NCBI GenBank assembly: GCA_025360225.1
Contig: JANYCN010000066.1
Location: 1 to 64,000 of the forward strand
DNA: 64,000 bases
Origin: Actinomycetes bacterium
Lineage (GTDB): Bacteria > Actinomycetota > Thermoleophilia > Gaiellales > F1-60-MAGs149
Reading direction: 5' to 3'
Of the stretch, positions 144-48,009 are shown piece by piece. Below the pieces are notes generated by a model. That model saw only the letters and a list, made by a program, of their open reading frames with translations, ran no database searches and was not told the origin of the DNA. The stretch's first letter is position 1. Every line of letters starts with the position of its first letter. A program made the translations under genes and the position numbers.

Positions 144-1469
144 CTAGAAGGACTCCATGTAACGGTCGATCTCCCACTGGTGCACCTGCGCACGGTAGTC
201 GCGCCACTCCGCCCACTTCTCCGTCAGGTACGCCTCGAAGATGTGATCGCCGAGCGCACGGCGCAGCACCGCGTCCCCGGCAAGCGCGCCGAGCGCGTCC
301 TCCAGGTTGTGCGGCAGGCTCTCGACCTTCATGTCCCGCTGCTCGTCCTCGGTCAGGTGGTAGATGTTCTTGTTCACGGCCGCAGGCGGCTTGAGTCCCC
401 GCTTGATGCCGTCAAGACCGGCAGCCAGGAGCACGGCGAACGTCAGGTACGGGTTCGCCGACGGATCGGGCGTGCGCAGCTCCGCGCGGGTCGAACGGCC
501 ACGCTTGGAAGGAATGCGGATCGCCGCCGACCGGTTACCCGGCGACCATGCGATGTACACCGGCGCCTCGTAGCCGGGGACGAGCCGCTTGTAGGAGTTG
601 ACGATCGGGTTGGCGATCGCCGTGATCCCCTTCACGTGCTCGAGCAGGCCGGCGATGTAGCCGTAGGCAGTCTCGGAGAGCTCGAGCTCGCCGTTCGGAT
701 CGTAGAAGGCGTTCTCGCCGCCCTTCGACAGCGACTGGTTCACGTGCATGCCCGAGCCGTTCTCGCCGAAGATCGGCTTCGGCATGAAGGTCGCATGCAT
801 GCCGTGCTCGGCCGCAACGACACGCACGACCTGGCGGAACGTGATCAGGTTGTCGGCACACGCGATCGGCGCCTCGTGGCGGAAGTCGATCTCATGCTGG
901 CCGATCGCCACCTCGTGATGGGACGCCTCGAGGTGGAACCCCATCAGGTGAAGGGTCTCCTCGATGTCGCGGCGCGTGTTCTCGCCACGATCCGACGGAG
1001 CGACGTCGAAGTAGCGCGCCTTGTCGTGCGGATCGACCGTCGGGTTGCCGCTCGCGTCCTTGTTGAAGAGGAAGAACTCGGCCTCGGGGCCGACCGCCAT
1101 GGTGTAGCCGAGGTCGGCCGCCTCCTTGACGACGCGCTTCAGCGCGACGCGCGGATCACCGGCGAACGGCGTACCGTCCGGGTCTGCGACGTCGCAGATC
1201 AGACGAGCGGTCGCTCCCGACGCCCGCGTGCGCCACGGCAGCACCTGGAAGGTGTCCGGGTCGGGATGGAAGTACATGTCGCTCTGCTCGATGCGCTTGT
1301 AGCCGCGGATCGACGAGCCGTCGAACATCAGCTCGTTGTTCAGCGCCTTGTCGATCTCCTCGACGGGGATCGAGATGTTCTTCACCTGCCCGTGCAGCTC
1401 GGTGAACTGCAGCGAGATGAAGCGTACGTTGTGCTCACGGCAACGGTCGCGCAGGTCCTGCTTGTCCAT
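144..1469 (-). CDS. glnA: Glutamine synthetase type I
   Basis: Makes glutamine from glutamate, ammonia and ATP in the cytoplasm; central nitrogen assimilation. The 441-residue product has the beta-grasp N-domain with the DGSSIRG motif, the metal-binding GPEAEFFLF stretch (about residue 120), HHEVAIGQHEIDF, the NGSGMHVNQSL loop, and the glutamate/ATP-site segment KRLVPGYEAPVYIAWSPGNR. The region where adenylylated enzymes carry NLYDLPPEE reads NIYHLTEDE, so control by adenylylation is doubtful and feedback control as in GSI-alpha enzymes is more likely (inference). The start is the ATG preceded by GAGGAGA six bases upstream; longer in-frame extensions have no such site. A repeat element abuts the stop codon, and a tRNA-Leu lies upstream on the same strand. 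Confidence 0.96.
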   Translation of the reverse strand: MDKQDLRDRCREHNVRFISLQFTELHGQVKNISIPVEEIDKALNNELMFDGSSIRGYKRIEQSDMYFHPDPDTFQVLPWRTRASGATARLICDVADPDGTPFAGDPRVALKRVVKEAADLGYTMAVGPEAEFFLFNKDASGNPTVDPHDKARYFDVAPSDRGENTRRDIEETLHLMGFHLEASHHEVAIGQHEIDFRHEAPIACADNLITFRQVVRVVAAEHGMHATFMPKPIFGENGSGMHVNQSLSKGGENAFYDPNGELELSETAYGYIAGLLEHVKGITAIANPIVNSYKRLVPGYEAPVYIAWSPGNRSAAIRIPSKRGRSTRAELRTPDPSANPYLTFAVLLAAGLDGIKRGLKPPAAVNKNIYHLTEDEQRDMKVESLPHNLEDALGALAGDAVLRRALGDHIFEAYLTEKWAEWRDYRAQVHQWEIDRYMESF

Positions 1470-5046: not shown

Positions 5047-6972
5047 GTGCCGTACCCGATCCGAACGATCCGTCACCTACCGCTCGTCATGGACGACGGC
5101 GTGGTCCTGTCGGCCAGCGTCCGTCTGCCGAACGCTCCTGGCCGCTGGTCGGCGATCCTCGACGCCGTCCCGTACCGCAAGGACGACGACTTCCGCGGCC
5201 TCGACGAGCGCACCTACGCTCCGATCGCCGCGATGGGGTTTGCCTGCGTGCGCCTCGACCTGCGCGGCTCGGGATCATCGCTCGGAACCGGCGAGGGCGA
5301 GTACCTGGAGCGCGAGCTCGTCGACCTCGAGCAGGCGATCGCGCTGATCGCCGCCGAGCCGTGGTGCACCGGCAGGGTCGGCATGACCGGCGTGTCGTGG
5401 GGCGGGTTCAACGCGATCCAGGTGGCGATGCGACGGCCAGAGGCCCTACGGGCAATCGCGCCAATCCACTTCTCCGTCGACCGGTACCGCTGCGACGTGC
5501 ACTACGCCGGCGGGAGCCTGCAGGTGCACGAGGCGGTCTCCTGGCCCGGCAGCATGGTGGTGGAGAACGCCATGCCACCCGACCCGTCGATCGTCGGCGG
5601 CGCATGGGAGGCGATCTGGCGTGATCGTCTCGAACGCACGCCGCAGTGGCCGCTCGCGACGCTCGCACACCAACGCCGCGATGCGTACTGGCGTCACGGC
5701 TCGGCGTGCGAGCAGTGGCGATCGATCGCGGTGCCGGTCCTCGCGATCGGGGGCTGGCGCGACGGCTATCGCGACGCCTGCCTCGCGGTCCTGCGCCACG
5801 TCGACGCGCCGCGACGTGCCGTGATCGGGCCATGGGGGCACGCCCGACCGTTCGCCGGAGCGCCGGGCCCAGCGCTTGACCACCGTCACCTGCTCGCCCG
5901 CTGGTTCGACCGTTGGCTGAACGACGTCGAGAACGGCGTCGACACCGAACCGACGCTCGTCGCGTGGCAGGGCGGGCGCTGGCGGGCGTTTCGCTCCGCA
6001 CCGGACACCGCCCGCTCGTTCGCCCTCGTCGACGAGGCGCTCACGCCGCAGGCGAGCGGCGGGAGTCCGCGCAGCTGGGCGGGGCCCGTCTGGGTCGGTC
6101 ACGGCGCGCCATGGTGGTGTCCGAACGGCGCCGAGCCGCTCGGCCGGGAGAGCGACATGCGTCGCGACGATGCGGCCTCGCTCTGCTACGACACGCCGCC
6201 CCTCCCCGCCCCGCTCGAGCTGCTCGGCGGTGCCACGGCAACGCTCACCGTCGTCGTTGACCGGCCGGTCGCCCAGGTTGCGGCCCGCATCGAGCACGTC
6301 AGCCCCGATGGCTTCAGCACGCTTCTCGCACGCGGCGGGATGAACCTCACCCGCTGCAATGACGCCGGACGACCGCGCCCCGTGGTACCCGGTGAGCCTC
6401 TCACCGTCTCCGTGGCGATCGCCGCCACCGGCGCGACGATCCCGGCCGGTCACCGCCTCCGGCTCGCGATCGCCGGCGCCGACTGGCCGATCATGTGGCC
6501 CGCGCCGGAGCCGTTCACGCTCACCGTCACCTCCGGCACCCTTGCGCTGACCGTCGTCGACCCGGCCTGCGAGGTCGGCGTGCCAGCCTTCCCGCTCGCG
6601 CCCGACCCGCCGATCGACGACGCCGCGCACGATGACCCGGAGACGACGTGGACCGTCGCCCGCGACCACACGACCGGCGCCGTGACGAACCGCACGACGA
6701 GCGGCTGGCGCACGACCTACGGCGACGGTGTCCTCTCCGCCGGGTCAGAGGACGTCTCGTGCAGCGTGCTGCCGGATGGAACGTGCACGGCGACGGCCCG
6801 GCACACGGCTGAGGTCAGGCTCGGGCCGGCGCACGCTCGTGCGGCGTCGACGCTGGCGATCCGCAGCGACCCGACGACCTATCACCTCTCGATCTCGCTC
6901 GACGTGGAGCGCGATGGTGCGCCGGTGTTCGCGCGGGCGTGGGCGGCGAGCGTCGCCCGCGACCTCATGTGA
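5047..6972 (+). CDS. CocE/NonD-family serine hydrolase (X-Pro dipeptidyl-peptidase-like)
   Basis: Likely hydrolyses an ester or amide in the cytoplasm; the natural substrate is unknown. The 641-residue protein has the S15/CocE layout. The N-terminal alpha/beta-hydrolase core carries the oxyanion region YRKDDD and the nucleophile motif GVSWGG (about residue 118), the acid in GGWRDGY (about 240) and the histidine in GPWGHARPF (about 266). A C-terminal jelly-roll domain begins near residue 370. There is no signal peptide. GTG is the start, with a -10-like hexamer directly upstream. It is followed 12 bases later by a DapA-family gene on the same strand, possibly one catabolic unit. Cocaine esterase activity itself should not be assumed. 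Confidence 0.88.
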   Translation: MPYPIRTIRHLPLVMDDGVVLSASVRLPNAPGRWSAILDAVPYRKDDDFRGLDERTYAPIAAMGFACVRLDLRGSGSSLGTGEGEYLERELVDLEQAIALIAAEPWCTGRVGMTGVSWGGFNAIQVAMRRPEALRAIAPIHFSVDRYRCDVHYAGGSLQVHEAVSWPGSMVVENAMPPDPSIVGGAWEAIWRDRLERTPQWPLATLAHQRRDAYWRHGSACEQWRSIAVPVLAIGGWRDGYRDACLAVLRHVDAPRRAVIGPWGHARPFAGAPGPALDHRHLLARWFDRWLNDVENGVDTEPTLVAWQGGRWRAFRSAPDTARSFALVDEALTPQASGGSPRSWAGPVWVGHGAPWWCPNGAEPLGRESDMRRDDAASLCYDTPPLPAPLELLGGATATLTVVVDRPVAQVAARIEHVSPDGFSTLLARGGMNLTRCNDAGRPRPVVPGEPLTVSVAIAATGATIPAGHRLRLAIAGADWPIMWPAPEPFTLTVTSGTLALTVVDPACEVGVPAFPLAPDPPIDDAAHDDPETTWTVARDHTTGAVTNRTTSGWRTTYGDGVLSAGSEDVSCSVLPDGTCTATARHTAEVRLGPAHARAASTLAIRSDPTTYHLSISLDVERDGAPVFARAWAASVARDLM

Positions 6973-11212: not shown

Positions 11213-13897
11213 ATGGCGCGTCGGACGGCCCCTGCGGAACCGTTGACACGTCGTCCCCTGTCCATCCTCACAGCGCTCCTGGTGCTCCTTGCGCCGAGCC
11301 TCGCCGTCGGCGCCCCGCCGACAGGCAACCCGCCCGTCCAGTCGTCGATCGTGACGCGTGCGAACGGCTCCCCTCCCGTCGCGCAGATTGACCCTGCGAT
11401 CGCGATCGACCCGATCGACGGGCTGCACCGGATCGTCACAGCAACCGAGGGAGCGACGGGACGGATCGGTCGCTGGTCGACGGCGGACGGCGGTACCAGC
11501 TGGGCGTTTCAGGGCGATGCGCCGATCGCTCCCGGCACCGTCGACGCCTCGCGGTCACAGGCAGCCTGGGGTGCTGGCGCCACCGTCTACTCGTCGTGGC
11601 AGGGCCGGACGACGCCGGGCAGCGGCGCCGACTGCGGCGCTGCGGCCGGCGCCTGGCTCTCCTCATCGACCGACAGCGGACAGACGTGGAGCGCCCAGGT
11701 CGAGCCGATTGAAGGGGGCGTGAACGGCGTGCTCGGCGAGTACGTCTCACGGGGTTGGGCGTCGCTCACGGTCGACGACTCGGCGCGGTCGACGGCTGGC
11801 CAGCCGCTGATGGCCGTTGAGAAGGCGACCTGGACCGGCGCGTGCGGCGTAGGCCCAGTCGCCCGTGAGCTGTCGCTCGTCTGGCGCGTCGTCGGCTCGA
11901 GCGGGACCGTCCACGACGTCGACTTCACCATCCCGGGCGTCACGGACGCGTCGAACCCCGCCATCGTCGCGGTTCCCGCGCCGATCCCGACGGTCGCTGT
12001 GGCGTACATCACGACGCCGGCCGGGGCCAGTGCTCATCCCATGATCGCCGTCGTTCGCTGCAGCCGCGACGACCTGAGCCCGACGAACATCTTCGGGCTC
12101 GAGTGGATCTGCAGCGCGCCACAGGTCGTCTCCGACGCCTCGTTTGCTCTCGTCACCTCGATCGGCGCAACCTCCGCCCCAGCGATCGCCGTTGACGGCA
12201 ACCATGGTGGTGCGCTCTTCGTCGCGTACACGACGGCGACCGCGCAGGGCGCTCGCGTCGTGGTCACCGCGTCCGATGCGGGCGGCTCGATCTGGACACC
12301 ACCGACGCTGATCGACGAGCCGGCCGGTGTGACGGCGCACCAGCTGCTGCCGGCGATCGCCGTCGCTGCGAACGGGCGGGCAGACGTCGTCTACCTCGAC
12401 GGCCGCGACGCGCCAACCGGCACGCCGACCTACGCGCCCTACCAGACCTCGTTTCTGTGCGTGAACCGCGACGACTGTCCCGCCGGCATGCTGCGCGGCA
12501 ACGACGTCGCGCTCAGCACCGGGGCGCCGATCGCCTCGCCGCTCGGCGCCGGCTGGTTGCTCGGCACGCAGCTCGCGGTCGCGGACGCGCAGAACATCCC
12601 GACACCGTACACGGGGCACACGATCGCGATCGCTCCGCAGGCGAATGGCCTTGCCTCGTCGGAGCTATGGCACGGCTCGCGCCCGCCGCAGATCGCTGGC
12701 GGGACGATCAGCGACCAGCCCCGCGTGCTCGCGAAGAACATCACGACGAGCCTCGCCGACTGGTTCGTCGCCACCGATGTCGACGGCGACCCGGTCAACG
12801 TGACCGTCACCACGGTCGGAGCACCTGCCCACGGCGCGATCGCCGCCGGCGCCTACACGCCTCTCGCTGGCTTTGCGGGGCAGGACTCCTTCACGATCGT
12901 CGCGACGGATGGGCGGCTCTCGGCGACCGCCGTCCACCCGGTCGTCGTCGTCGACCAGGCGCCACAGTTCGACGCCGTTCAGCCATGCGTGGTGACCGAG
13001 GGCGCAGGATGTACACGACCGGTGAACGCCGTCGATCCGGATCCCGGCGATGGCGTCACCTACGCCCTTGGCTACGTGCCGCCCGAGCTGCGTGTGGCAC
13101 AGGCGAGCGTGAAGCTCAACGGCACGACGCTCGAGGTCTCGGTCGGCGCCGGCGTTCGCTACCCGGGCCTTCTCCGGGTCGAGGTGGTTGCGAGCGACAC
13201 GGCGCTGGCGCCAGCGCTGCCGCTCACATCGCGGCTGCCCATCTTCATCACCATCGTCCCGAACCTGAGCGTGCCAACGGTGACGGTCGCCGCCACCGCG
13301 GTCTCGGGGAGGTCCGTGCGGCTCACCGCCGCTCCGTTCTGGAGCGACCCGGACGACGGCTGCCTGACCGCCCTGGTCAACCGGTGCCACTGGCAGCTGA
13401 CATGGAACACCGGCGACGGGGAGACGACGACCACGACCGACGCGACGCTCGTCCACAGCTACGCAGCCGCCGGCTACTTCGCCCCCACGGTGACCGCACA
13501 GATCATCGGCTACAGCTCACCGGTGCCGCCGTCCGCCGTCGCGGGGCTGCTCACCGGCCCGGACCATCCGGGTGCGATCGCCGTCAGCGACGACGCACGC
13601 ACGCGCCTGTACGTACGAGCAAGCGGCACGCGGAGCGGGACGGTGCAGCTGCTGGTCGCCTCGCGAGACACGACGACCCTCGACGTGACGCTCGTGATCG
13701 CCGCCACAGGGCGTCGCTACCAGCGCAGCGTCCACGTCGTGGCTGGTCGGGCCGGTGCGCTCGGCGCCGCCGTGACGACGACGTTCCGGATCGGTGCGGT
13801 GCGCTCGACGGGAGCGACGGTCGTGCTGGGGTACGCCGAAAGCCTCGCGAGCGAGCCGCCTCCCCGCCCGCTGCGCAAGGTGTTCTGGATCCGCTAG
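11213..13897 (+). CDS. Secreted Asp-box (BNR/sialidase-like) protein with Ig/PKD-type domains
   Basis: Function unknown; probably extracellular carbohydrate or surface binding. The 894-residue protein has a signal peptide (basic start, then ILTALLVLLAPSLAVGA). Residues about 40-490 form a repeated beta-propeller-like region with Asp-box motifs STADGGTSWAF, SSTDSGQTWSA and SDAGGSIWTPP. A cadherin/Ig-like unit follows (GDPVNVTVTTVGAPAHG to DSFTIVATDG), then a second Ig-like unit and a PKD-type unit with WNTGDGETTTTTDATLVHSY. Sialidase catalytic residues (arginine triad, Tyr/Glu) cannot be assigned, so enzymatic activity is uncertain. No anchor is seen at the end (VFWIR). The stop codon lies six bases from repeat copy B. 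Confidence 0.82.
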   Translation: MARRTAPAEPLTRRPLSILTALLVLLAPSLAVGAPPTGNPPVQSSIVTRANGSPPVAQIDPAIAIDPIDGLHRIVTATEGATGRIGRWSTADGGTSWAFQGDAPIAPGTVDASRSQAAWGAGATVYSSWQGRTTPGSGADCGAAAGAWLSSSTDSGQTWSAQVEPIEGGVNGVLGEYVSRGWASLTVDDSARSTAGQPLMAVEKATWTGACGVGPVARELSLVWRVVGSSGTVHDVDFTIPGVTDASNPAIVAVPAPIPTVAVAYITTPAGASAHPMIAVVRCSRDDLSPTNIFGLEWICSAPQVVSDASFALVTSIGATSAPAIAVDGNHGGALFVAYTTATAQGARVVVTASDAGGSIWTPPTLIDEPAGVTAHQLLPAIAVAANGRADVVYLDGRDAPTGTPTYAPYQTSFLCVNRDDCPAGMLRGNDVALSTGAPIASPLGAGWLLGTQLAVADAQNIPTPYTGHTIAIAPQANGLASSELWHGSRPPQIAGGTISDQPRVLAKNITTSLADWFVATDVDGDPVNVTVTTVGAPAHGAIAAGAYTPLAGFAGQDSFTIVATDGRLSATAVHPVVVVDQAPQFDAVQPCVVTEGAGCTRPVNAVDPDPGDGVTYALGYVPPELRVAQASVKLNGTTLEVSVGAGVRYPGLLRVEVVASDTALAPALPLTSRLPIFITIVPNLSVPTVTVAATAVSGRSVRLTAAPFWSDPDDGCLTALVNRCHWQLTWNTGDGETTTTTDATLVHSYAAAGYFAPTVTAQIIGYSSPVPPSAVAGLLTGPDHPGAIAVSDDARTRLYVRASGTRSGTVQLLVASRDTTTLDVTLVIAATGRRYQRSVHVVAGRAGALGAAVTTTFRIGAVRSTGATVVLGYAESLASEPPPRPLRKVFWIR

Positions 13898-13903
13898 TAG
13901 TAG

Positions 13904-14083
13904 TGGTCTGATTGTCAGAGAGCGGCGTCATCGGGTGTCTCGAGCGAGCGGGGGCGTTGCGCGTCGCGCAGGGCTTGCTGGGGCAAGCGCAAGCGGCGCG
14001 CGACGCTCCCGCAGGGTGGCGCAGCCGGCCAGCGCAGGACGATCCAGGCGCGCGAATGACCACGCCAGTTGACAATCAGACCA
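13904..14083. repeat. MITE-like element, copy B (complete)
   Basis: A 180-base element bounded by a perfect 14-base terminal inverted repeat, TGGTCTGATTGTCA at the left and TGACAATCAGACCA at the right, with weaker pairing extending to about 28 bases. The four bases on each side are GTAG, consistent with a target duplication. The interior (GGGCTTGCT ... CAAGCGGCGCGC) is shared with copies A, C and E. It codes for no protein but places an ATG inside its right end that opens the MarR gene. It lies between two plus-strand genes. Confidence 0.85.
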
Positions 14084-14550
14084 GTAGCAACCTTGAACAG
14101 GAGACACAAGCGGTCGTCGATCGCATCCTCGGCGCGCTACCGCGCATCGGCGCGGGCATGCGACGGCACGGCATGGCAGCGTCGGGCTGCGGCGCGAGTC
14201 TCGGCCCGCGGCACTTCCAAGCGCTGCTGCCGCTCTTGCACGAGGGAACGCTCGGGGTCGGTGCGCTCGCCCAGCGGCTCGACGCGAGCCTCGCGGCCAC
14301 CAGCCTGATGGTCGCCGAGATGGACGCAGCCGGCGTCGTCGAGCGACACCAGGATCCCGATGATCGCCGCCGCACTCTCGTCTCGGTGCGTTCGGACGTG
14401 CGTTCGGAGCTCGAGGGAGCGTACTCCGAGCGCAGGCGACTGCTCGCCCGGGCCATCGAGCGGCTCGGCGCCGAGGAGCGCGTCGGCCTTGTACGCGGTC
14501 TCGAGGCGATCGCCGACGAGCTCCACGCTGACGCTACCGACTCGCCGTAG
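14056..14550 (+). CDS. MarR-family transcriptional regulator
   Basis: A winged-helix DNA-binding protein of 164 residues, the normal MarR size. Helices around LGPRHFQALLPLLHEG, the recognition helix region LAQRLDASLAATSLMVAEMDAAGVVE, and the wing RHQDPDDRRRTLVSV are clear; a C-terminal dimer helix follows. The first plausible start, ATG at 14056, lies inside the right end of repeat copy B, so the first nine codons (MTTPVDNQT) come from the repeat. The true N-terminus could be later if a non-standard start is used. Its target is unknown; the convergent PLP dehydratase and the upstream secreted protein gene are candidates. Confidence 0.85.
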   Translation: MTTPVDNQTSSNLEQETQAVVDRILGALPRIGAGMRRHGMAASGCGASLGPRHFQALLPLLHEGTLGVGALAQRLDASLAATSLMVAEMDAAGVVERHQDPDDRRRTLVSVRSDVRSELEGAYSERRRLLARAIERLGAEERVGLVRGLEAIADELHADATDSP

Positions 14551-15561: not shown

Positions 15562-15876
15562 CGGTCCGATTGCGATGTCGTGGTCATTCCGCGGCCGATG
15601 AACGGAGCGAGCGGGAGCGTTGCGCGTCGCGCAGGGCTTGCTGATCGCGGGCGTGCTGGATAGCACGCCCGCTCGCACGCGTGTCAAGGCGAAGGCCTTG
15701 ACACGCTAAGTGCAAGCGGCGCGCAACGTTCCCGCGAAGCCCACGATCCGGCACGCAGAGCGGGCCGGGACGCGGTCGCCGGAGCTGAGCGGCGTAGCCA
15801 CCCGACGGGTGGCAGAGCCGACAAGCGCAGGACGATCCAGGCAGTCGGATGACCACGCCATTTCACAATCAGACCA
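15562..15876. repeat. MITE-like element, copy C with double hairpin
   Basis: About 315 bases. The right end reads TCACAATCAGACCA (15863-15876); the left end is a decayed form (CGGTCCGATTGCGATG). The middle carries two hairpins: arms GCGGGCGTGCT/AGCACGCCCGC with loop GGAT (15647-15672) and GTGTCAAGGC/GCCTTGACAC with loop GAAG (15681-15704). They sit inside the GGGCTTGCT...CAAG core that is uninterrupted in copy B, so they look like a later insertion shared with copy A. The right end supplies the last codons and stop of the neighbouring hydrolase gene. Confidence 0.85.
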
Positions 15877-16598: not shown

Positions 16599-16691
16599 TG
16601 GTGTGATTGCGAGATGGGGCGTTCATTGGCGGTCTGCCAGCGCAGGACCATCCAGGCAGCCGAGTGACCACGCCGTCTCGCGACCAGATCA
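16599..16691. repeat. Short decayed copy D of the inverted-repeat element
   Basis: About 93 bases between the nuoN stop and the hydrolase start. The left end TGGTGTGATTGC and the right end (TGACCACGCC ... CCAGATCA) are recognisable variants of the family termini; the GCGCAGGACCATCCAGGC interior matches copies B and C. The core with GGGCTTGCT is missing. Confidence 0.6.
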
Positions 16692-16696
16692 CGAGG

Positions 16697-18163
16697 TTAC
16701 GGTGCCGCGACGAGCGAGGCCGCGGCCGAGCCCGCCCAGTCAAGCACGTCAGACGGATACACGCCAAGCCAGAGCACGACTCCTGCCGCGACGACGGTGG
16801 CGATCCCGGCGAACACCGCGCCTGGCGCGAGCTCTGCCATCGCGCCACTCTCCGAGCCGCGATCGAACATCGAGAGCCCGACCTTCAGGTAGTAGCCAAG
16901 CCCGATCACGGTGGCGACCACACCGACGATCACGAGGTAGGTGGAGTCCGCCTGCACCGTCGCGGAGAAGAGGTACAGCTTCGCGAGGAACCCTGCGGTC
17001 GGCGGGAACCCGCCGAGGGACAGCAGGAACACCGTCAGGCTCGCTGCCATCGTTGGTCGTTTGAAGCCCCAGCCGCGGAGCGACTCGATCGTCGCCGGCC
17101 CGCCAATCTCCCGCTCGTGCACGGCGATCACCGCAAACGAGCCGACGCTCATGGCCGCATAGCAGGCGAGGTAGAAGAGGAGCGCCTTGCCGGCGCCCGA
17201 GCCGGCGACGATCGCCATCAGCAGGTAGCCGGCATGACCGACGGACGAGTACGCCAGCATCCGCTTGACGTTCGTCTGCCGCAGCGCCGCGACGTTCGCG
17301 CCGATCATCGTGACGATCGCGAGCGCGGCGAGCGCCGGACGCCAGTACTGCGCCTCGGCCGGGAGCGCCGCGACCGTCACGCGGTAGAGGATCGCGAAGG
17401 CCGCGGTCTTCGTCGCCGCCGACATGAAGCCGGTGACCGGGGACGGCGCGCCCTCATAGACGTCCGGCGTCCACATGTGGAACGGCACGACGGCGACCTT
17501 GAACGCAAGCCCTGCGAGCACCATCGCCGTGCCCGCGAGCGCGAGCGGCGCCGTCGGGTCTGCGCGGAGCCCCTTGGCGATGCCGGCGAGGTCGAGCGCG
17601 CCGGTCGCGCCGTAGAGGAGCGCGGCGCCGTACAGCAGCACCGCCGACCCGACGGACCCGAGAACGAGGTACTTGAAGCCGGCCTCGAGAGAGGCCTCGC
17701 TGCGCACGTCGAACGCGCAGAGGGCGTAGAGCGTGATCGAGAAGAGCTCGAGCGCGACGAACAGCGACACGAACGAGCTGGCCGCGGAGACGAGGTCCAT
17801 GCCGGCAGCTGCGAAGACGAGAAACGCGACGAACTCCGGTCCACGCTCTCGCATCCTCGGCCACCCGTACGCCACGGCGAGCGTCAGGAGCCCGGAGCCG
17901 GCGACGATCACCCTGACGGCGTTCGCGAAGCGGTCTACAACGAGCTGGTCGGACAGCACGCTCCAGCTGCCGCCGTGGCTGTCCCAGATCTGCGCAGTAG
18001 CGATCAGCGAGCCGACGAACGCCCCGGCGCCGATGAGGAACGACAGGTCGCGTGCACCGCGGCCGCCGACGGCGACGGCGAGGAGCAACAGAAGCGACGC
18101 GGCGCCAAGGAGGACCACGTCTGGGGCGAGCGCGTCCCACTCGATCGTCGGCGGCGTGATCAT
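16697..18163 (-). CDS. nuoN: NADH-quinone oxidoreductase subunit N
   Basis: Last gene of the complex I operon. A 488-residue polytopic membrane subunit of the Mrp-antiporter type that takes part in proton pumping. It has about 14 hydrophobic segments beginning at VVLLGAASLLLLLAVAVGG, with the antiporter-family signature HMWTPDVYEGAPSPVTGFMS near residue 235 and a conserved charged lysine in the broken helices. It overlaps nuoM by four bases, in keeping with coupled translation. Repeat copy D follows the stop by five bases and may mark the operon end. Confidence 0.95.
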   Translation of the reverse strand: MITPPTIEWDALAPDVVLLGAASLLLLLAVAVGGRGARDLSFLIGAGAFVGSLIATAQIWDSHGGSWSVLSDQLVVDRFANAVRVIVAGSGLLTLAVAYGWPRMRERGPEFVAFLVFAAAGMDLVSAASSFVSLFVALELFSITLYALCAFDVRSEASLEAGFKYLVLGSVGSAVLLYGAALLYGATGALDLAGIAKGLRADPTAPLALAGTAMVLAGLAFKVAVVPFHMWTPDVYEGAPSPVTGFMSAATKTAAFAILYRVTVAALPAEAQYWRPALAALAIVTMIGANVAALRQTNVKRMLAYSSVGHAGYLLMAIVAGSGAGKALLFYLACYAAMSVGSFAVIAVHEREIGGPATIESLRGWGFKRPTMAASLTVFLLSLGGFPPTAGFLAKLYLFSATVQADSTYLVIVGVVATVIGLGYYLKVGLSMFDRGSESGAMAELAPGAVFAGIATVVAAGVVLWLGVYPSDVLDWAGSAAASLVAAP

Positions 18164-38205: not shown

Positions 38206-39137
38206 GGCTGTTGCTGCTCGGAGGGTCGACCTTCCTCGGCCCGGCGCTGATCGACGCCGCACATGCTGCCGGGCATGACGTGACGACGTTCACGCGCGGG
38301 ACGACGCCGATCCCACGCGGCCGGATCAGCGAGCTGAACGGCGATCGGGAGCACGACCTGAGCGCGCTCGACGGCGGGGCGTGGGACGCGGTGATCGACA
38401 CGTCCGGCTATGAGCCGCAGGTCGTGCGTGCCAGCGCCGAGCTGCTCGCCCCGCGCGTCGGGCGGTACGTCTTCGTCTCGACGATCAGCGTGTACGCGGC
38501 CGACGGCTTGCCGCTCGACGAGGACGCGGCCGTCGTGCGTGACGAGCCCGAAACGTACGGCGGGGCGAAGCTGCTGTGCGAGGAGGCGGTCGCCGAGCTC
38601 TTCGGCGGGCGGAGCGTGATCGCGCGTCCGGGGATGATCGTCGGTCCAGGCGACCCAACCGGTCGGTTTTCTTACTGGGCGCACCGCATCGCGAGAGGGG
38701 GCGAGGTTCTGCTGTTCGACGGTCCCGATCGCCGTCTGCAGCTGATCGACGTCCGTGACCTCGCCCGCTGGCTCGTCCACGCCTGCGATGTCGGGCTCTC
38801 CGGGACGTACAACGTGACCGGCCCGCGCGAGCCGCTGACGCTGAGGGACATGTTCACAGCCGCGGTCACCACGACCGGCGCTGCCGCACACCCGACGTAC
38901 GTGTCGGAGGCGCTGCTCCGCGAGCACGCGGTGGCCGAGTGGGGCGAGCTGCCGTTCTGGATCGACAGCGCCTCGCCCGCAGCGAGCGTCGCGAACGCGA
39001 TCATCATCGACCGGGCGCTCGCGGCCGGTCTGACGTTCAGGCCTTTGGCGGAGACGGTCACCGGCGCGCTCACCGCTCCTCTGATCGATGGCGTCGGGCT
39101 CACTCCCGAGCGCGAACGAGCGCTCCTGGTGGTGTGA
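38202..39137 (+). CDS. NAD-dependent epimerase/dehydratase-family protein
   Basis: An extended SDR-like Rossmann protein of 311 residues. Cofactor motif LLLGGSTFLGPALIDAA at the N-terminus, IDTSGYEPQ, STISVYAADG, and the catalytic pair in YGGAKLLCEEA. It resembles isoflavone-reductase or CsdB-like reductases; the substrate is not readable. It starts with TTG overlapping the DtxR stop. Its C-terminal LLVV and TGA lie in a solo copy of the repeat terminus (TGGTGTGATTGC). Confidence 0.82.
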   Translation: MRLLLLGGSTFLGPALIDAAHAAGHDVTTFTRGTTPIPRGRISELNGDREHDLSALDGGAWDAVIDTSGYEPQVVRASAELLAPRVGRYVFVSTISVYAADGLPLDEDAAVVRDEPETYGGAKLLCEEAVAELFGGRSVIARPGMIVGPGDPTGRFSYWAHRIARGGEVLLFDGPDRRLQLIDVRDLARWLVHACDVGLSGTYNVTGPREPLTLRDMFTAAVTTTGAAAHPTYVSEALLREHAVAEWGELPFWIDSASPAASVANAIIIDRALAAGLTFRPLAETVTGALTAPLIDGVGLTPERERALLVV

Positions 39138-39140
39138 TTG
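39129..39140. repeat. Solo terminal motif of the inverted-repeat family
   Basis: TGGTGTGATTGC at a gene 3' end. With its left flank, CTCCTGGTGGTGTGATTGC is identical to the left end of copy D (16592-16610). The matching other end is not seen. Confidence 0.45.
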
Positions 39141-46133: not shown

Positions 46134-47567
46134 GTGTTCAAGAATCGCATGCCGCGTTACGAGGTCCTGTCCGAGGCCCAGCTTCTCGAGATCGACCGGG
46201 GCTGGAAGCGCATCCTCAGCGAGATCGGGATCCAGTTCGACCACCCCGACGCGCTCGAGCTGTTCCGCAAGGCCGGCCAGCGCGTTGAGGGCGACGTCGT
46301 GTTCCTCGATCCCGAGTTCGTCACGGCGATGGTCGCGCAAGCGCCGAGCGAGTTCACGTTGCACGGCCGCAACCCGGCCCGCCAGATGCACGTCGGCGGC
46401 GACTGGATGGCGTTCGCGCCGGTCTCCGGTGCACCGTTCTCGAGCCGTCGCGGCGTCCGTCGTGAGGCATCGTTCGCCGACCACGTCGACCTCTGCAAGC
46501 TGTGTCAGGTGTTCGACGAGCTCGACACGCCAGCGTCGCTGGTGTGCGAGCCGAACGACGTGCCGATGGACTCGCGCCACCTGCAGATCCAACGCAACGT
46601 CCTGACGCTGACCGACAAGCCGTACATGGGCGCCTCGATCTCGGGCCTCGCGACGGCAGACTCGATCAGGATGGCGGAGATCGTCTTCGGCAGCCGCGAG
46701 GCGATCGAGGCACGCCCGGTGATGTTCGTGATCGTCAACTGCAACTCGCCGCTGCGCTGGGACACCCGCATGCTCGAGGCGATGATGACGTGCGCGGCAG
46801 CCGGGCAGGCGCCGATGTTGACACCGTTCCTGCTGATGGGTGCGATGTCACCCGTGGCGATCGGCGCGGCTCTCGCACAGCAGACCGCCGAGGCGTTCTC
46901 CGCGCTCGCGCTGTGCCAGCTGATCCGGCCCGGCGGTCCGGTGATCATGGGATCGTTCCTCTCGAACACCGACATGCAGTCCGGCTCGCCAGGCTTCGGC
47001 GGCCCGGAGTCTGCGCTCGGCCTGCTCTGCTCGGGTCAGATCGCGCGACGCTACAACATCCCGTGGCGCTCAGGCGGCGGCGGGCTCACGTCGTCGCCGG
47101 CCGTTGACGCACAGGCGGGCTACGAGTCGTTCAACACCCTCAACTCGGCGTTCCTCGCCGGCGCGAGCGTCGTCATGCAGTCGACGGGCTGGCTCGAGTC
47201 AGGGCTCGTCGCGAGCTTCGAGAAGTTCATCATGGACATCGAGATCGTCAAGATGCTGCAGGTGCAGTACACGCCAATCGAGATCGACCTCGCGTTCGAC
47301 GCCCACCAGGAGGTCGGGCACGGCGGGCACTTCCTCGGCGCTGCGCACACCCTCGAGCGCTTCCGCGACTGCTTCTATCGCCCAATGCTGTCGACGACGG
47401 AGAACTGGGACCGCTGGACGCGGAACGGCCAGAAGGACGCCTACACGCGGGCCTCTGACCTCGTCGACAGGACCTTGGAGCGGTGGGAGCGACCGTCAAT
47501 CGACGACGGAGTGCTGCTCGAGCTCGACGAGTTCGTCGCGAGGCGCACGACCGAACTGGGCGACTAG
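46134..47567 (+). CDS. MttB-family methyltransferase (non-pyrrolysine)
   Basis: A 477-residue protein of the trimethylamine methyltransferase superfamily. Opening YEVLSEAQLLEIDRGWKRIL, then FDHPDALELFRKAGQRVEG, a TIM-barrel core with FVIVNCNSPLRWDTRMLEAM and MGAMSPVAIGAALAQQTAEA, and the end LLELDEFVARRTTELGD. There is no in-frame amber codon, so it belongs to the non-pyrrolysine branch, which contains demethylases of glycine betaine, proline betaine or carnitine. Their corrinoid partner protein is not encoded in this window. Start chosen as GTG with a leaderless -10; a much longer open frame upstream has no similarity. Confidence 0.87.
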   Translation: MFKNRMPRYEVLSEAQLLEIDRGWKRILSEIGIQFDHPDALELFRKAGQRVEGDVVFLDPEFVTAMVAQAPSEFTLHGRNPARQMHVGGDWMAFAPVSGAPFSSRRGVRREASFADHVDLCKLCQVFDELDTPASLVCEPNDVPMDSRHLQIQRNVLTLTDKPYMGASISGLATADSIRMAEIVFGSREAIEARPVMFVIVNCNSPLRWDTRMLEAMMTCAAAGQAPMLTPFLLMGAMSPVAIGAALAQQTAEAFSALALCQLIRPGGPVIMGSFLSNTDMQSGSPGFGGPESALGLLCSGQIARRYNIPWRSGGGGLTSSPAVDAQAGYESFNTLNSAFLAGASVVMQSTGWLESGLVASFEKFIMDIEIVKMLQVQYTPIEIDLAFDAHQEVGHGGHFLGAAHTLERFRDCFYRPMLSTTENWDRWTRNGQKDAYTRASDLVDRTLERWERPSIDDGVLLELDEFVARRTTELGD

Positions 47568-47601
47568 CCTAGGCACCCGTCAACAGAGGTCAGCGGTGGC
47601 G

Positions 47602-47731
47602 CGTGGGGGGATCGAGCGGGGGTGGCGGCCGTCCTGCGGAGATTGCTCGGACAAGTGCAAGCGGCGCGCGGCGCGCAACGCTCCCGCTCGCTCCAGACTC
47701 CCAATGACGCCGCCATCCGACAATCACACCA
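47602..47731. repeat. Inverted-repeat element, copy E (left end decayed)
   Basis: The right end CGACAATCACACCA (47718-47731) is a variant of the family terminus, and the interior AAGTGCAAGCGGCGCGCGGC and CAACGCTCCCGCTCGCTCCA match copies A-C. The left boundary is uncertain. The right end touches the stop codon of the LuxR remnant. Confidence 0.65.
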
Positions 47732-48009
47732 CTAGTGATCGCGGGCGGCGAGGCTCGCGCCGCCCGGGAGGAGCAGCCCCTCCGCTACGGCCTTTGCCGC
47801 CGCCGAGGCATAGGTCGGCGTCTCGAGCTTCTCGAGGATCCGTTCCACGTTCGCTCCGACGGTTCGCGGCGGGATGAACAGCGCGTCCGATCTCCGGGTT
47901 CAAGCGCCCGTCGGTCATGAGCGCGAGGACCTCGAGCTCGCGACGGGTGAGGTCGAACACGGCTTCCGCCAGCGTCGCCGTCACGACCGCGGCCCAGGAC
48001 TCGTCGCCG
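47732..48009 (-). pseudogene. Frameshifted LuxR-type helix-turn-helix remnant
   Basis: On the minus strand FDLTRRELEVLALMTDGRLN and PEIG begin a LuxR (GerE) DNA-binding domain. After a frameshift near 47885 it continues in another frame as LFIPPRTVGANVERILEKLE, then SAAAKAVAEGLLLPGG. Joined, this is a complete C-terminal LuxR domain ending at the TAG at 47732-47734. The sensor part is absent; sequence upstream changes directly into an SDR remnant, suggesting a deletion joined two genes. Confidence 0.7.

Follow-up and report, generated by a model that had tools for sequence, protein, structure and literature searches.

REP and BIME sequences are hairpins with a GTAG foot linked to a Y1 (RAYT) transposase, and roles as terminators or 3'-end stabilisers have been proposed for some REP-like repeats. 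The IS630 family targets CTAG with duplication of the TA. IS870 of Agrobacterium is the subject of a 1993 paper by Fournier, Paulus and Otten, which PMC6471742 lists among its references. This element reportedly inserts at CTAG in such a way that a stop codon is created at the junction. IS5 of E. coli produces a 4-bp target duplication at sites such as CTAG and CTAA and shows an intergenic bias, according to the consulted portions of PMC11677980. MITEPsy1 of Pseudomonas syringae, as portrayed in the excerpts of PMC3189936 consulted, is a 100-nt element present in six copies, carries 18-nt inverted repeats and is thought to be a derivative of ISPsy2 (IS5 family); its transposition has been observed.

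Here we describe a family of repeats in an Actinomycetes bacterium that are very probably non-autonomous IS5-type MITEs, inserting at CTAG, coinciding with stop codons by way of the TAG within that target and filtered by selection. An earlier sequence-only reading of the window, by which we mean the whole 64,000-nucleotide stretch analysed (G000:C22:1-64000; 70% GC), had noticed these repeats at gene ends, called the arrangement far from random and suggested either an insertion preference for 3' ends or selection as terminators or mRNA-end structures.

The genome assembly comprises 3.24 Mb in 89 contigs. Our sample, the window together with 40 stretches picked around copies (757,181 bases in total), contains 79 copies or single ends, 38 of them two-ended, which are short, numerous and without a transposase ORF, as is characteristic of MITEs. 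Paired copies measure 70-330 bp, most commonly about 310 bp, and bear 28-bp terminal inverted repeats at either end in all 38 cases. Genome-wide, 175 repeat ends were recovered by one 28-bp pattern and 231 by a looser consensus, with none in reversed controls, and copy C of the window has 84 BLAST matches, whole or partial. Many contigs start or stop within copies, which indicates that the assembly breaks at these elements, and some single ends at contig tips may be one locus counted twice (L018/L038 and L031/L149 share the same flanks). Counted ends (117 in the main sample) had at most eight mismatches in pairs and at most six as single ends, and distance counts omit those with no gene called on the outer side (3 of 117 in the main sample, 2 of 35 in a held-out set).

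The copies of the window, A to E, are given here without strand, and the relations to neighbouring stops that had been claimed for them all hold. Copy A (1-138) is cut by the contig start and retains its right terminal repeat (111-138); it is followed by CTAG (139-142), a T and a second CTAG (144-147), forming a CTAG-N-CTAG doublet that contains the TAG stop codon of glnA (144-146, minus strand) five bases from the copy. Copy B (13,904-14,083; 180 bp) has GTAG at both flanks in direct orientation. Its left flank, CTAGTAGTAG, includes the stop of an upstream secreted-protein-like gene (13,895-13,897), six bases away, and its right terminal repeat holds an ATG (14,056-14,058, plus strand) in an open frame into a MarR-family ORF (14,056-14,550), of which it is the start as called; judged by such frames, a repeat ATG can give the next gene its start codon. 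The frame that it opens runs outward, begins MTTPxDNQT and is the called start of two genes, the second being in L048 near position 5105.

Copy C (15,562-15,876; 315 bp) represents the long form of the family, with a diverged left repeat and flanks CTCG and CGAG. Its right terminal repeat provides the final GTG GTC TGA (VV-stop; TGA at 15,869-15,871, minus strand) of a beta-lactamase-fold (UPF0173-like) hydrolase gene, the relative of which in G003, a genome of the same family and another genus, stops two residues earlier. Copy D (16,599-16,691), short and diverged, lies five bases from a nuoN-like TAA stop (16,697-16,699) and overlaps the called 5' end of the same hydrolase gene; the G003 relative has 25 fewer residues, so the gene probably begins immediately beyond the copy. 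Copy E (about 47,573-47,731) has a decayed left repeat and CTAG at its sides (47,569-47,572 and 47,732-47,735). Its right end gives a small ORF its VV-TGA, this ORF being the LuxR-like remnant named earlier (20.5 bits, under the Pfam cut-off of 23.5), and its left side adjoins an MttB gene with a TAG stop (47,565-47,567) inside CTAG-C-CTAG|E (47,564-47,572), a coincidence absent from the sequence-only reading. That reading had also listed a solo end at an epimerase gene. The epimerase does terminate in ...LLVV* with its stop at 39,135-39,137, in TGGTGTGATTGC, and this VV-TGA falls within a 12-base match to a repeat-end variant (39,129-39,140, plus strand, CTGG before it), but no match continues farther inside, so the site is a decayed end at best. 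The mismatch limits keep both this remnant and the left end of copy E out of the 117 ends.

Outside the repeat end, TGGTCTGATTG, the adjoining 4-mer is CTAG at 70 of the 117 ends, CTCG at 25 and others at 22, in a genome where CTAG is under-represented (275 observed, 680 expected). Sixteen of the 38 pairs have CTAG on both sides, one has direct GTAG (copy B), two have inverted CTCG and 19 have differing flanks. We infer from these flanks that CTAG is the duplicated target, a 4-bp duplication not being provable from CTAG because it is a palindrome. An alternative would make CTAG part of the inverted repeat itself, so that stops are carried at both ends of the element and supplied near gene ends. 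The CTCG flanks, which replace CTAG at about one-fifth of ends, lend it something: they nearly always have the same sense relative to the element (L015, L021, L022, L035, L040 and L041 among others), and since this element-facing sense is shared by the two ends of a copy, simple duplication of a CTCG target does not account for them; in two inverted pairs the orientation is repeat-like. CTAG is also retained outside diverged repeats in two genera. Against this alternative, head-to-tail copies have one common 4-mer: six such junctions genome-wide (C17:2253; C47:28020; C60:86086; C73:24185 and 24284; C85:264) share CTAG in three cases and CTCG/CGAG in three, which is what re-use of a flanking CTAG for a new insertion would be expected to produce.

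Doublets of the form CTAG-N-CTAG occur ten times in the genome, nine of them at element edges, with a chance expectation of about 0.1 (calculated in the first sample); the lone exception, C72:6828-6836, lies next to GACGGGCTCCTAG sequence. These doublets are candidates for excision footprints; another explanation would be a new insertion into a site that had been used before. A further motif, GGGCT(C/A)CT(A/C)G, stands ahead of many copies (for example L018:10914, L020:9973, L032:9232 and L035:2795) and possibly represents the 3' arm of a host terminator.

At 26 of 114 ends the TAG of the flanking CTAG is itself the stop of the neighbouring gene (distance 0; these genes, called by a codon-model script, span 276-2895 bp). 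Random non-coding positions, by comparison, place 21 of 3156 sides at a stop (p ~5e-27), and tabulating copy-to-stop distances against this random model therefore bears out the strong departure from randomness that had been claimed. Element-free CTAG sites give a different picture. Of 176 such sites, 92 are coding, 52 intergenic, 31 at stops and one at an edge, so that stop codons make up about a third of the non-coding sites, and 32 of 152 non-coding CTAG sides lie at a stop (p=0.77 against the elements). Counted by element, 25 stand at stops and 28 are intergenic, compared with 31 and 53 of the CTAG sites (p=0.29). Twenty additional stretches, held out from the main sample, have 6 of 33 ends against 12 of 41 CTAG sides at stops, and the pooled figures are 32/147 and 44/193. 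Element ends and CTAG sites thus share one stop rate, with no excess at stops beyond a random choice of CTAG. Of the proposed insertion preference for 3' ends, a preference for CTAG stands and an added attraction to stops does not.

It is unlikely, in our assessment, that the transposase prefers 3' ends in some way beyond CTAG, for instance by recognising terminator hairpins or CTAG-rich 3' regions. Such a preference would agree with a slight surplus of ends lying 1-15 bp beyond stops (13/114; CTAG sides, 4/152; p=0.005), although about six of these 13 are CTAG or TAG duplications beside the element, and with the frequency of GGGCT, which is present in 13 of 91 non-stop flanks and in 4 of 106 from the CTAG background. 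The second genus bears on the same question. G003 carries a sister element family with a diverged repeat, TGGTTCGACACGGAAATGGCG, and CTAG at 18 of 36 ends; it is too distant for intergenic alignment with the present genome, and one coding-region match (L100) was dropped as chance before counting. Ends 1-15 bp past stops are again found there (4/35 against 3/162 CTAG sides), and the stop share of its pairs is above the CTAG background (8:1 against 38:45, p=0.03), albeit in small numbers. Yet ends exactly at a TAG stop (13/35 against 41/162 CTAG sides) are not in significant excess over CTAG (p=0.21), as is also the case in the main genome, and the overall side bias is accounted for by depletion at starts.

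This depletion is marked. A start lies within 60 bp of just 6 of the 114 ends, but of 49 of the 152 CTAG sides (p=2e-8); in the smaller G003 set the corresponding difference is non-significant (6/35 against 48/162, p=0.15). Of 36 pairs, only 1 is in a divergent region and 11 are in convergent ones; among 76 CTAG sites the counts are 22 and 8, and of 1578 random positions 465 are divergent. Insertions within genes are rare even though about half of the element-free CTAG sites are coding. The general 3' lean of the family (79 of 114 ends on the 3' side against 62 of 152 CTAG sides, p=4e-6) arises because few insertions lie near starts, in divergent regions or in genes. Depletion near starts and in divergent regions fits purifying selection, and we infer that selection removes the missing classes of insertion.

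The same lean could be claimed as evidence that the elements are kept at gene ends to terminate transcription or to stabilise the 3' ends of mRNA, and so could the fold of a copy of about 310 bp, predicted to be a near-complete stem (-221 kcal/mol, z -14). Inverted repeats produce such a stem in any case, however, and many copies lie away from stops. One representative full copy with its flanks contained no hairpin followed by a T run (0.4 expected from shuffles), so that the terminator or mRNA-end role suggested earlier finds nothing in its favour beyond the strong predicted hairpin. The stop coincidence, explained by the CTAG null, requires no positional selection, and a terminator role was rejected as the cause of position; we consider it very improbable.

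Whether a stop belongs to the gene or to the element can be approached through reading frame. If elements supplied stops in random frame, distance 0 should be about as frequent as distance -8, at which the repeat contributes VV-TGA; the observed ratio is 26:4 (p=6e-5), in favour of a pre-existing TAG. The earlier idea that elements supply stop codons is thus correct for the 4 of 114 ends with a VV-TGA stop from the element, and otherwise the stop is mostly the gene's own. In G003 the ratio is 13:0, which is not a fair frame test because the G003 repeat has no VV-TGA frame. Among 10 pairs of orthologs that include an element-abutting gene, only 6 have C-termini no more than three residues apart (some of the remainder align raggedly or doubtfully), compared with 79.5% of 127 other pairs. 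The well-aligned distance-0 genes L009_6 and L020_11 stop within two residues of their relatives' ends. Taken together, the frame ratio and the ortholog ends suggest that most stops are probably older than the insertion, with some, as at copy C, coming from the repeat. The VV-TGA cases do show a repeat able to supply stops, as an inverted repeat containing CTAG would demand, but the frame ratio, the ends of these two genes and a stop coincidence equal to that of element-free CTAG sites leave that alternative distinctly unlikely.

A likely parent is preserved in part. Contigs C26 and C84 begin inside an IS5-type transposase gene, and after its TGA the right half of the MITE follows without interruption, then the terminal repeat and CTAG. 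The 143-aa transposase fragment matches PF01609 (42.2 bits, cut-off 23) and PF13586 (41.6 bits, cut-off 29.2), and its best NCBIfam match is NF033580 IS5, at 106.9 bits for the fragment against a whole-protein cut-off of 110. An intact insertion sequence, its left half and the N-terminal part of the transposase were not found in the assembly. With the transposase gene fused to a MITE right end, we read the elements as MITEs most probably formed by internal deletion from an IS5-family insertion sequence, and a transposase of the C26/C84 type would presumably move them. A scan of GTDB with the fragment returned 12 distant loci; a full-length relative in G118 (53% identity) had no clearly discernible IS ends. 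An IS630 parent was ruled out by the lack of any PF13358 (DDE_3) match in the genome, and DDE_5 genes were set aside as members of the IS701 family by NF033540. A DUF4096 ORF at the end of the window's contig was likewise rejected: it is a different, broken IS5-like gene beside the start of an IS701-like element (L084/L085, C22 about 71,000-71,892, outside the window). That IS701-like element starts at CTAG|TAGTGCTTTGTTGG in C22 as well as C35 (L050), which makes it a second, unrelated insertion sequence located at CTAG.

Most of the pattern is explained by CTAG targeting together with selection that removes insertions within genes or ahead of starts, and the sister family of G003 shows CTAG flanks and stop coincidence recurring independently in another genus. 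In the mechanism that we propose, an IS5-family transposase would insert the MITEs at CTAG, a 4-bp target of YTAR type, leaving CTAG on both sides. About half of element-free CTAG lies in genes, where insertion would be selected against, and copies ahead of starts or inside divergent promoters would be lost. Insertion at an xxC TAG stop would leave the stop whole (CTAG|TGGTCTGA...), and for this reason copies at stop codons would survive, as would those in 3' intergenic positions. Where CTAG falls in another frame, the repeat would end the ORF as CTN GTG GTC TGA, as in copy C and the LuxR-like ORF. More speculatively, CTAG targeting might amount to a safe-harbour strategy in GC-rich genomes: cut-and-paste MITEs would be directed to stops, where TAG preserves the protein, and so reach more than 100 copies, CTAG-N-CTAG footprints would record the leaving and re-entering of sites, and drift to CTCG would block re-use of a site. 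We regard this extension as rather unlikely.

The link between these repeats and gene ends reduces to target sequence and selection, and the null model is usable on any genome. Repeats at stop codons should accordingly not be read as regulatory. Where a 4-bp target also serves as a stop codon, insertions can be harmless, and host proteins may now and then gain a few residues or a start codon from them.

Compared with described systems, the family combines familiar features differently. In IS870 it is the ORF of the element itself whose stop the target completes, whereas here host stops are the targets; unlike IS870, the transposase fragment ends at an internal TGA about 180 bp before the element end. 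The IS630 family has a similar CTAG preference, but this genome has no PF13358 and its transposase fragment resembles IS5. With long terminal inverted repeats and flanks of CTAG, the anatomy of the family is unlike that of REP/BIME. In the literature searched, of partial coverage, we met neither a quantified stop-codon coincidence reduced to a CTAG null nor a paper uniting MITE, CTAG target site and IS5 family, and the consulted portions of PMC5009743 contain nothing on CTAG-targeting MITEs at stops. IS5 of E. coli is a full insertion sequence in eleven copies, and the consulted portions of PMC11677980 do not describe MITE expansion. MITEPsy1 has another repeat sequence, and stop codons as targets are not discussed in the excerpts of PMC3189936; like the present elements, it is a short MITE from an IS5-family element and a precedent for CTAG targeting. 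CTAG targeting itself therefore has precedents, in MITEPsy1, IS870 and IS5.
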